Shown here piece by piece: positions 55,193-63,224 of a stretch of 64,000 nucleotides of DNA. The stretch is from Calidithermus chliarophilus DSM 9957. GTDB taxonomy: Bacteria > Deinococcota > Deinococci > Deinococcales > Thermaceae. The stretch is from positions 411,901-475,900 of the forward strand of contig NZ_KE387027.1 in the NCBI RefSeq assembly GCF_000430045.1, given 5' to 3'. The position numbers were made by a program, and so were the translations under genes. The notes beneath the pieces were generated by a model. It was not told the DNA's origin. It was given only the letters and a program-made list of their open reading frames with translations, and did not search any database. Within the stretch, counting starts at the first letter, position 1, and every line of letters starts with the position of its first letter.

Positions 55193-55383
55193 TCGCAGCC
55201 AGTGGCCTGTGGCTGTGGCTCGTGGTTATCCCCCCCGGCCCTCCGGGTTAGCGTCGAGGGTCGAGGGTCTAGGACGTTTTGCGCCTTGCGTTTTGCGTAC
55301 GACGTACGACGTAGGACGCACGATGCTGGGCGCGGCGTTTGGCTATCGGCTATCAGCTATCAGCTATCGACGTCTTCCGGCAT
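55193..55383 (+). repeat. Composite heptamer repeat element, copy Q
   Basis: It fills most of the 344-bp gap from the tRNA to the UspA gene. Forward order: GTGGCCT/GTGGCTC heptamers, CCCCCCCGGCCCTCCGGG, GTCGAGGGTCGAGGGTCTAGG, GCGTTTT/GCGCCTT units, ACGTACG/ACGTAGG units, and GCTATCG/GCTATCA heptamers. Confidence 0.85.
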
Positions 55384-55869: not shown

Positions 55870-55908
55870 TCCGGCCAGCTCCTTCCGCCCTCAGCGTAGG
55901 CGGCCCGC

Positions 55909-55991
55909 CTGAATCGGCTCTGTCCTGGGGCTAAACGAAGGCTGAATGCCGGCTGAGTCCCGGCTGAATGCGGCTGAGCCGGGGCTGAGCC
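55909..55991 (+). promoter_or_regulatory. Array of 11-bp-spaced CTGA boxes before the response-regulator gene
   Basis: Direct repeats begin at 55909 (CTGAATC), 55920 (CTGTCCT), 55931 (CTAAACG), 55942 (CTGAATG), 55953 (CTGAGTC), 55964 (CTGAATG), 55974 (CTGAGCC) and 55985 (CTGAGCC), nearly all exactly 11 bp apart. OmpR/PhoB-type regulators bind such 11-bp direct repeats. The last box ends 2 bp before a TATGCT -10 (55994-55999) and would take the place of a -35, as in PhoB-activated promoters. Confidence 0.75.
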
Positions 55992-55993
55992 TG

Positions 55994-55999
55994 TATGCT
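55994..55999 (+). promoter_or_regulatory. -10 box of the two-component operon
   Basis: TATGCT directly follows the CTGA-box array and precedes the RBS GGGGAGGTGAT. Confidence 0.6.
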
Positions 56000-56020
56000 C
56001 GAGCCGGGGAGGTGATCGTC

Positions 56021-56704
56021 CTGAAACGCATTCTGGTCATCGACGACGACGAGGGCATCACCCACTTCCTCCGGGTCGGGCTCACCTACGAGGGCTACGC
56101 CGTCTCCACGGCGGCCAGCGGCGAGGAGGGGCTGCGGGTGGCGCGCGAGCAGCCGCCCGACCTGGTGGTGCTCGACTGGATGCTGCCCGAGCTCTCGGGC
56201 CTCGAAGTCCTGCGGCGGCTCAAGGCCGTCAACGAGAAGCTCCCGGTCATCCTGCTCACCGGCAAGGACGCCCCCGACGACCAGGTGCTGGGCTTCGAGA
56301 CCGGCGCCGACGACTACGTGCTCAAGCCGGTGCGCTTCGAGATCCTGCTGGCGCGCATCCGCGCCCGCATGCGCGACCAGGAGCCCCAGCCTGAGGTGCT
56401 CACCTACGCCGACCTGCGGATGGAGCCCGCCGCACACACCGCGTTCCGGGGCGTGCGCGAGATCCAGCTCACCGGGCTCGAGTACCGCCTGCTGCAGCTT
56501 CTGGTGGAGAACGCCGAGCGGGTGTTCTCCAAGAGCAGCATCCTCGACCGCATCTGGGGCGAGGACTTCTTCGGCGACCCCAACGTGGTCGAGGTCTACG
56601 TCAAGCAGTTGCGGCAGAAGCTCGAGGCCGGCGGCGAGCCCCGGCTGATCCAGACCATCCGCGGGGTGGGCTACGTGCTGCGGGCGCTGCCCGCGGAGGC
56701 CTAG
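56021..56704 (+). CDS. Response regulator, OmpR/PhoB family, probable CTG start
   Basis: A ~227-residue regulator. The receiver domain (1-~115) starts KRILVIDDDEG, phospho-acceptor Asp52 is in LVVLDWMLPE, switch Thr is in ILLTGKD and Lys in YVLKPVR. The winged-helix domain (~130-227) ends RLIQTIRGVGYVLRALP. The usual family start (M)KRILVIDDD corresponds to a CTG codon at 56021, with GGAGGTGAT 8 nt upstream. A GTG at 56012 is inside that RBS and an ATG at 55946 is upstream of the promoter. Non-canonical CTG initiation is therefore likely. It is co-transcribed with the kinase 12 nt downstream and probably autoregulated. Confidence 0.88.
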   Translation: MKRILVIDDDEGITHFLRVGLTYEGYAVSTAASGEEGLRVAREQPPDLVVLDWMLPELSGLEVLRRLKAVNEKLPVILLTGKDAPDDQVLGFETGADDYVLKPVRFEILLARIRARMRDQEPQPEVLTYADLRMEPAAHTAFRGVREIQLTGLEYRLLQLLVENAERVFSKSSILDRIWGEDFFGDPNVVEVYVKQLRQKLEAGGEPRLIQTIRGVGYVLRALPAEA

Positions 56705-56716
56705 CGGGGGCGAGCC

Positions 56717-58150
56717 GTGTCCATCCGCCTGCGCCTGGCCCTGTGGTACGGCACCACCACCGCGCTCATCGTGACGCTGGTAGCGCTGCTGGGCTGGGGG
56801 GCCTACGTGCAGGGGCAGTACCGCCTGCTCGACCAGGTGCTGCTGCTGTCGGCCAACCACGTCGCCGCGGGGTGGCGGGTCTCGGGCACCTCCTACGTGC
56901 TCGAGGCCGACCTCTCCGAGCTCGAGGTCGCCTTCCGGCTTTACGGCCCCGGCGGCAAGCTCAAGCGCACCTCGCGCCGCGTCCCCGAGCTGCCCCTGAT
57001 CGACCCCGCCCGCTTCCTCGAGCAAGCGCCCGCCCGGCCGCGCGGGTGGGGCCTCCTCGGCTGGACACCCCCCGGCGTGACCCCCGCGGGGGCGGCCTTC
57101 GGCCTGAGCCGGGGCGAGGGTACCCGCTGGCGCACGCTGGTGCAGCGGCTGGAGCGCGACGGGGAGGTGCTGGGCTACCTCGAGGCCCTCACCCCGCTGG
57201 GCGGCCTCGACCGCTCGGTGCGCTCGCTGGGCTTGCTGCTGGTGGGCCTGATCGTGCTGTCGGTGCTGGGGGTGCTGGGCCTGAGCCTGGCCCTGGCGGC
57301 CATCGGCCTGCGGCCCATCGACCAGCTCAACCGCGCCGCCCAGCAGATCGCCCGCTCGCGCGACCTCTCGCGCCGGGTGGAGGGCCGCCCCGGCGGCGAC
57401 GAGCTCTCGCGCCTGGCCGAGACCTTCAACCAGATGCTTTCCAGCCTCCAGGAGGCCGACAACGCCCAGAAGCGCTTCGTGGCCGACGCCTCCCACGAGC
57501 TGCGCGCCCCGCTGGCGACGATCCAGGGCAACCTCGAGCTCCTGCGCCGCTACCCCCAGATGCCCGCCGCCGAGCGGGAGAAGACCTTGCGCATGGCCGA
57601 GCGCGAGGCCGTGCGCCTGTCGCGGCTGGTCAACGACCTGCTGACCCTGGCCCGCGGGGACGCGGGCTTGCCGCTGCGCCAGGCCCCCGTCGGCCTCAGG
57701 GCCGTGGCGCAGGAGGCGCTCACCGAGGCGCGCTACCTGCTGCGGGGGCAGCGGCTGGAGGCCCCCGAGCTCGAGGAGGCCTGGGTGCTGGGCGACCGTG
57801 ACCACCTCAAGCAGCTCGTCCTGATCCTGCTCGACAACGCCATCCAGTACACCCCCGAAGGCGGCGAGGTGCGGCTCTCGCTGCACGCGGAGGGGGAGGA
57901 GGCCCGGCTCACGGTGAGCGACACCGGCATCGGCATCCCGCCCGAGGACCTGCCCCACGTCTTCGAGCGCTTCTACCGTGCCGACCCGGCCCGCAGCCGG
58001 AACAAGGGCGGCAGCGGCCTGGGGCTCGCCATCGCCCACTGGATCGTCGAGCGGCACGGGGGAGCGGTCACGGTGGAGAGCCAGGTGGGGCGGGGCACCA
58101 CCGTCGCGGTGCGGCTGCCCCTGCGGGCGCACGCGCCCATCGCCCGGTAG
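56717..58150 (+). CDS. Membrane sensor histidine kinase
   Basis: A 477-residue kinase, GTG start. There are two membrane helices (~8-30 and ~173-198) with a ~140-residue external sensor domain between them that I do not recognise. A HAMP domain (GLRPIDQLNRAAQQIA) follows, then HisKA with phospho-His260 in FVADASHELRAPLATI. The ATPase domain has N box LILLDNAIQYTP, G1 DTGIGIP, F box FERFYRAD and G2 GGSGLGLAIAHW. It would phosphorylate the upstream regulator. Proximity to nhaA and trehalose genes suggests a salt, pH or osmotic signal; this is inference. Confidence 0.9.
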   Translation: MSIRLRLALWYGTTTALIVTLVALLGWGAYVQGQYRLLDQVLLLSANHVAAGWRVSGTSYVLEADLSELEVAFRLYGPGGKLKRTSRRVPELPLIDPARFLEQAPARPRGWGLLGWTPPGVTPAGAAFGLSRGEGTRWRTLVQRLERDGEVLGYLEALTPLGGLDRSVRSLGLLLVGLIVLSVLGVLGLSLALAAIGLRPIDQLNRAAQQIARSRDLSRRVEGRPGGDELSRLAETFNQMLSSLQEADNAQKRFVADASHELRAPLATIQGNLELLRRYPQMPAAEREKTLRMAEREAVRLSRLVNDLLTLARGDAGLPLRQAPVGLRAVAQEALTEARYLLRGQRLEAPELEEAWVLGDRDHLKQLVLILLDNAIQYTPEGGEVRLSLHAEGEEARLTVSDTGIGIPPEDLPHVFERFYRADPARSRNKGGSGLGLAIAHWIVERHGGAVTVESQVGRGTTVAVRLPLRAHAPIAR

Positions 58151-61842: not shown

Positions 61843-61890
61843 TCAGCTCCCCCTCAGCCGGTGTTCAGAAGGGCTTCAGGCCGCTTTCAG
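61843..61890 (-). promoter_or_regulatory. Second array of 11-bp-spaced boxes, between treS and bshA
   Basis: TCAG on the + strand begins at 61843, 61854, 61865, 61876 and 61887, all exactly 11 bp apart. On the minus strand these read CTGAAAG, CTGAAGC, CTGAACA, CTGAGGG, CTGAGGA toward treS. This is the same word and period as the array at 55909-55991, pointing to the same regulator. Confidence 0.7.
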
Positions 61891-61940
61891 GGCAGCAACC
61901 GTTTCACCTGGCATTAATTCGGCGAAACGAGGAAGCCTTT

Positions 61941-63224
61941 ATGGATAACCGCCGTAAGATTGCCATCCTATGCCACACCAGCGCCGGGGGCTCCGGCGTG
62001 GTCGCCACCGAGTTGGCGATCGCCCTGGCGGGGCTGGGGCACCAGGTCCACATCGTCGCCACCGAGCGGCCCTTCCGCCTCACCGACGACCGCATGGCCA
62101 TCGCGGGGGACCACGCCCCGGCTTTGGTGCGCGACCTGGGCGAGAACCCCAAGGGCTGGGGCCACTGGCTCAAGAAGAGCCGCGAGAGCGTGCTGGGCTG
62201 GCTCGCCCGCACGGGCCGCAAGTCGGGCCAGGGCACCCTGCACTTCCACCAGATCACCGGCGCCGACTACCCGCTGTTCAAGGAGCCCATGACCATCCTC
62301 ACCGCCTCCAACGCCCTGGCCCAGGTGGTCGAGCGCCACGGCGTCGAGATCGTCCACGCCCACTACGCCATCCCCCACGCCACCAGCGCCCTGATGGCCC
62401 GCAGCATGGGCCTGCCCATCAAGGTCGTGACCACCCTGCACGGCACCGACGTGACGCTGCTGGGCCTCGAGCCCGCCTTCGCCCACACCACCAAGCACGC
62501 GGTGCAGGAGTCCGACGCGGTCACGGCCGTCTCGCGCTCGCTCGAGCAGGACACCCGGCGCAACCTGGGCATCGAGCGGCCCATCCACGTGGTCCATAAC
62601 TGGGTCGACACCGAGCGCTTCCGCCCCAACCCCGACCCCGCCAACCGCCTCAAGTACGCCCAGCCCGAGGAGGCCATCCTGCTGCACGTCTCCAACTTCC
62701 GCCCGGTCAAGCGCCCGCAGGACGTCATCCGCGTCTTCTCCGCCGTCGCCCGCGAGCGCCCGGCGCGCTTGCTGATGATCGGCGACGGCCCGGCGCGGCG
62801 GGAGTGCCAGGAGCTCGCGCTCGAGCTCGACCTGGCGGGCCGGGTGCAGTTCATCGACTTCACCCCGGCGGTCGAGCGGTTCATGGCGGTGGCCGACGTG
62901 TTCTTGCTGCCCTCGGAGGAGGAGTCCTTCGGGCTGGTGGCGCTGGAGGCCATGAGCTGCGGGGTCCCGGTGGTGGCGAGCCGGGCCGGGGGGCTGCCGG
63001 AGGTGGTGGTCGAGGGCGAGAGCGGCCACCTCTGCCCGGTGGGCCACACCGAGGCCATGGCCGAGGCCGTGCTCGGCATCCTCGCCGACCCCCGGCGCCG
63101 CGCCGAGATGGGGCGGGCGGCCCGCGAGCGCGCGGTGCAGAACTTCCGGCCCGAGCACATCCTGCCGCGCTACCTCGAGGTCTACCAGAGCGCGCTGGAA
63201 GGCGAGGAGATCGTGTGGGCTTGA
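61941..63224 (+). CDS. bshA: BshA-type glycosyltransferase (N-acetyl-alpha-D-glucosaminyl L-malate synthase)
   Basis: A 427-residue GT4-family enzyme, ATG with GAGGAAG upstream. The N-terminal half has the BshA hallmarks [57 protein letters not shown] and [12 protein letters not shown]. The C-terminal half has the UDP-sugar motif [19 protein letters not shown]. It joins GlcNAc to malate in the first step of bacillithiol synthesis. It overlaps otsA, so both are one unit controlled from the box array upstream. A ~35-residue insertion ([20 protein letters not shown]) differs from Bacillus enzymes; another malate or sugar acceptor is possible. Confidence 0.82.

Follow-up and report, generated by a model that had tools for sequence, protein, structure and literature searches.

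An eight-box array of 11-bp tandem half-sites between a response-regulator gene and a divergent usp gene in Calidithermus chliarophilus, and the stress-type regulon that it may mark

The array and its neighbouring genes

The window, a stretch of 64,000 nucleotides from Calidithermus chliarophilus DSM 9957, carries a universal stress protein gene (usp; family match to PF00582; 55399..55869, minus strand) that is 71% identical to its counterpart, found in the same place, in the sole other genome of the genus that was found (G001, used for the alignments of both arrays described below). Divergently from usp, on the plus strand, lie the gene of a response regulator (56021..56704) and that of a HAMP histidine kinase assigned by family match (56717..58150), its probable partner, which is adjacent to the regulator gene in several orthologs as well. 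The regulator consists of a receiver and a winged-helix domain (PF00072 and PF00486, both above their cut-offs), the two-domain build of the OmpR/PhoB family. It belongs to a clade, defined here by about 55% identity or more and with members in 10 of 41 genomes, in which D9, D10, D52, T80 and K102 are invariant and a specific recognition helix is conserved (NVVEVYVKQLRQKL in the window's regulator). Its start codon is apparently CTG (56021), with a long Shine-Dalgarno match, GGAGGTGAT, upstream (56006-56023); the start is also CTG in G001 and is ATG in other orthologs. A paralogous regulator locus (65% identity) is represented by L040 and L041 (G000:C3:459571 and G000:C7:925468), the upstream sequences of which are identical; the L041 copy lies near the end of contig C7, which points to a duplication or an assembly overlap. 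Short imperfect intergenic repeats, cgacgtacgacgta and ctatcggctatcagctatcagctatcg, are present downstream of usp (55264-55380).

A sequence scan combined with the comparison to G001 delineated, between usp and the regulator gene, an array of eight in-phase half-sites (55909..55988) whose TCAG core is on the minus strand. Read on the plus strand, exact CTGA boxes start at 55909, 55942, 55953, 55964, 55974 and 55985, and boxes with one mismatch at 55920 (CTGT) and 55931 (CTAA), which are ACAG and TTAG on the minus strand; the original prediction of eight CTGA boxes was thus right about all positions and about the sequence of six of them. The boxes follow one another at steps of 11, 11, 11, 11, 11, 10 and 11 bp, so that the predicted 11-bp phase over ~80 bp was borne out with a single 10-bp step. 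The minus-strand reading is TCAG-N7-TCAG, with the final box at 55912-55909.

In G001, the boxes in matching phase are TCAG, ACAG, TTAG, TCAG, TCAG, TCAG and GCAG. Both variants, ACAG and TTAG, are therefore kept in the same phase in the two genomes of the genus, for which reason the boxes at 55920 and 55931 are regarded as genuine members of the array. Across the six boxes that were aligned, identity is 24/24 bases within boxes as against 23/35 within spacers, which in terms of sequence is a footprint-like pattern, and conservation in relatives, named as a check when the array was first noticed, is thereby established for G001. The boxes closest to the regulator gene are lost or degenerate in that genome, and the usp end is intact. 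In Markov windows of 64 kb with the same composition, the longest CTGA/TCAG run comprised three boxes and occurred in 5 of 200 windows; when all 256 tetramers were allowed, a run of five of some tetramer arose once in 30 random windows. The five consecutive exact boxes alone exceed chance expectation.

Direction of the array and promoter layout

On the usp side, the last TCAG (box 55909) is followed by GCGGGCCGCC and then by TACGCT (55893..55898, minus strand), a predicted -10 element of usp located exactly 10 nt past the box; in G001, the last TCAG is followed by GAAAGCCGTC and TAGACT. The same offset recurs elsewhere. On the CTGA side, none of 74 arrays from this and related genomes has TANNNT at an offset of exactly 10; on the TCAG side 19 do, an enrichment with a binomial probability of about 4e-21 against background. 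Four more have it at offset 11, which brings the two offsets together to only 23 of the 74 arrays, and in the remainder the -10 elements are weaker or placed differently. Where the two flanking genes run in the same direction, the TCAG reading points to the downstream one in approximately 21 of 24 arrays, by our tally. Similarly, at 13 regulator loci (12 from the order to which the window belongs and one from Ktedonobacter), TCAG-N10-TANNNT faces away from the regulator gene in eight cases and towards it in none, the clean unit being absent at some of them (L012, L016, L018, L019 and L040). A sigma-70 -35/-10 hexamer pair was looked for, and none was found.

Because the offset of 10 on the TCAG side fits at box 55909 in both the window and G001, the divergent usp gene is taken to be the predicted main target. 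On this sequence evidence, the promoter-proximal end of the array is 55909 and not 55985, and it faces usp; the claim that the array is directed at the response-regulator gene is contradicted, and a regulator-directed promoter as its main function was rejected on the offset statistics (19/74 vs 0). It is hence from the promoter, and not from the nearest regulator gene, that the direction of a tandem array has to be read. The geometry that had been proposed, namely that of PhoB-type sites, holds up in the other direction: 11-bp tandem half-sites are typical of OmpR/PhoB-type regulators, and the terminal box stands in the place of the -35 element, at a fixed 10-nt offset from the -10 and without a -35, as in a PhoB-like class II layout. 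The distance from TCA to the -10 in the E. coli pstS promoter is reportedly the same as here.

PhoB promoters share with the present array both a last box that stands where a -35 would be and the direct repeats of 11 bp that make up the Pho box in E. coli (PMC3978041). They differ in their core, which is CTGTCA as opposed to TCAG, and in that up to eight boxes are found here. A PhoB phosphate regulon was rejected, as the regulator scores 216.2 bits against the PhoB family TIGR02154 (cut-off, 296.2) and no phosphate uptake genes (pst, pho) occur among the targets scanned, which are part of the predicted ones; the kinase scores 211 bits against PhoR (cut-off, 334). The ArcA sites of E. coli consist of two to five direct-repeat elements with 11-bp spacing, are bound cooperatively and have a plastic architecture (PMC3798270). 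The arrays described here resemble them in the variable number of such elements, whereas the eight boxes at this locus exceed that range, in agreement with the original prediction of more boxes than usual. ArcA, moreover, is mostly a repressor and in many cases overlaps the promoter, in contrast to the fixed -10 offset of these arrays. By full-length sequence, the closest relatives of the regulator with solved structures are the mycobacterial PhoP, PrrA and MtrA proteins, which have the same two-domain build; it differs from MtrA in its score (204 bits, family cut-off 300) and in the recognition helix that is proper to its clade. Its scores reach the cut-off of none of the named families given here.

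Recurrence of the promoter unit and its predicted targets

A second array, overlooked by the original prediction, is found in the same window between treS and bshA, on the opposite strand from the first. It was detected by sequence scan and comprises five TCAG boxes, all exact and in steps of 11 bp (61843..61890, plus strand) facing bshA (61941..63224, plus strand), the bacillithiol synthesis glycosyltransferase gene (family match to TIGR03999) and its predicted target. Relative to G001, 20/20 box bases and 16/28 spacer bases are identical. ACCG at 61898..61901 (ACCC in G001) might be a degenerate sixth box, and CATTAA at 61912..61917 (CATCAT in G001), 10 nt past it, a possible -10 of bshA; both plus-strand matches are weak, and this -10 is weaker than that of the full promoter unit. 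Full TCAGN7TCAGN10TANNNT promoters precede BshA-like starts in G004, G015 and G019, and the BshA-like protein of G015 matches glycosyltransferase families. As for treS, only a C-terminal remnant of it subsists in G001 (residues 464-547; L043:7080-7332) beside an intact array and bshA, and for that reason it was discarded as the gene that the second array mainly serves.

The three-box motif CTGAN7CTGAN7CTGA has 19 matches in the genome under study, with none for the reversed control, and 106 matches in 61 genomes including that one, with controls empty except in G033; those inspected are mostly intergenic. For the full unit, TCAGN7TCAGN10TANNNT, there are 113 matches across 41 genomes vs 2 for the reversed control, and it often precedes stress-type genes (bshA, usp and those of trehalose enzymes, YtxH-like, DUF2171, PRC and YihY proteins). 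In the genome under study, the predicted targets include usp, bshA and the genes of amylase-family enzymes resembling trehalose synthesis enzymes, YihY/BrkB, YtxH/DUF883-like, DUF2171, BON and GreA/GreB-like proteins, NRAMP, FMN reductase, topoisomerase IB, a PAS histidine kinase and a single-domain receiver; further targets, predicted in relatives, are genes of PRC-barrel, DUF892, Transgly_assoc and ABC1 kinase proteins, of a protein with both YHS and HMA domains, and of Crp-type regulators. Target gene starts were chosen by a simple script, and some of these assignments may be wrong. Taken together, the predicted targets look like what we infer to be a general stress set. No published description of the regulon or of its motif was found in the open-licence literature, which is weak evidence of novelty, and the best reading is that of an undescribed stress-type regulon, of OmpR/PhoB type and with class II-like activation.

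Several of these sites have features of their own. A 31-base promoter unit is letter-identical in two genera (G000:C5:104568-104598 and G021:C85:5184-5214); it precedes the PAS histidine kinase gene in the genome under study and may have moved between genomes. G028, G032 and G040, of family f5, have in common a variant of the unit in which ATCAGGT is repeated; it may serve another regulator, related to this one. In L182:1396-2667, a BrkB/YihY protein runs on into a YtxH/DUF883-like part in a single open frame of 424 aa with a second TCAG promoter unit inside it, which suggests a fusion or a missed stop. The single-domain receivers L183 (G000:C3:761452-761848), L340 and L315 (G007) resemble the receiver of the regulator clade; at two of the three, a pair of TCAG boxes is directed at the receiver's own gene, and these receivers may act as phosphate sinks of the same network.

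The probable reader of the sites and its mode of action

The interpretation that we favour, and consider fairly likely, is that the eight tandem, head-to-tail half-sites are of the OmpR/PhoB type and are read by the adjacent response regulator, which activates usp, and that the promoter unit marks a regulon. Once phosphorylated, the regulator would occupy the boxes cooperatively, all on the same face of the helix. The subunit nearest the promoter, bound to box 55909, would take the position of a -35 element and thereby bring RNA polymerase to TACGCT, the -10 of the divergent usp gene. In the Thermaceae and in some of their relatives, the TCAG-N7-TCAG-N10-TANNNT layout would be the mark of a stress-type regulon of multiple genes, to which bshA would belong by way of the second array, and a stress signal may be what the system responds to.

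Tandem repeats of 11 bp adjoin the regulator gene and its orthologs, and three-box arrays are present in 10/10 genomes that have a member of the clade vs 8/31 that do not, a comparison that ignores phylogeny. A scan of contigs for relatives yielded Chloroflexota orthologs and no close relatives from the organism's own phylum; the Ktedonobacter ortholog (58% identity) has a perfect promoter unit beside it, in an array of four boxes. Orthologs on Deinococcus plasmids have two or three boxes only and no clean promoter unit. G007 contains arrays and several promoters in common with G004, yet no member of the clade, which implies that another regulator reads the sites there or that they are relics. 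The neighbouring regulator is therefore only the probable binder of the array. A reading in which the sites, with the same polarity, are mainly bound by another regulator of OmpR type or shared among several paralogs, the neighbour being only a controlled gene or a minor reader, appears doubtful. The sites of G007, the TCAG promoters of the clade-related single-domain receivers and the 65% paralog in the same genome would suit this view; the co-occurrence of arrays with the clade and their position next to the regulator gene in many orthologs, including one from Chloroflexota, argue for the neighbour, as does the lack of a convincing array at the other regulator genes of G007, two boxes before a single-domain receiver excepted.

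The mode of action might also be the reverse, the bound regulator repressing both usp and its own gene by covering their promoters in the shared intergenic region. L014 and L016, where TCAG boxes lie downstream of a plausible -10 of the regulator gene, suit repression of that gene; a fixed offset replacing the -35, with no -35 hexamer, is nevertheless the layout of an activator, and repression is unlikely.

At the far end of the array, TATGCT (55994..55999, plus strand; TATCAT in G001) is a candidate -10 of the regulator gene, for which no -35 match was found. The original prediction had reported this element correctly and had placed it 2 bp after the last box, the actual distance being 5 bp from the last CTGA. 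Since this candidate abuts the array in the window, autoregulation, whether positive or negative, is possible. A stronger version, in which 55985 is the working end and the array activates the regulator gene from TATGCT in strong positive autoregulation, seems quite improbable: TGTATNNT is kept in G001 and arrays adjoin most orthologs of the regulator, but their distance from its start varies widely, the CTGA side lacks a fixed -10 offset, and the regulator-proximal boxes are not conserved. Finally, the G+C-rich region and the five-runs in 1/30 random windows might speak for a functionless repeat that arose by chance or mutation; this is exceedingly improbable in view of the box-wise conservation, the recurrence with empty controls and the fixed -10 offset, and plain chance was rejected on the Markov windows together with recurrence and conservation.

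Returning to activation by the adjacent regulator, a broader proposal, put forward tentatively, is that the general stress response of non-Thermus Thermaceae and of some relatives is governed by a two-component regulator of PhoB-like type, in a role that elsewhere falls to SigB, RpoS and other alternative sigma factors, and that the number of boxes, from two to eight, sets promoter strength or threshold. Arrays that range in nature from two to eight tandem sites form a series on which the relation between box number and cooperative activation could be studied. For this lineage, in which no description of such a system was found, the analysis offers a testable regulon, a promoter rule and a candidate regulator for a stress physiology that may involve bacillithiol, trehalose and universal stress proteins.
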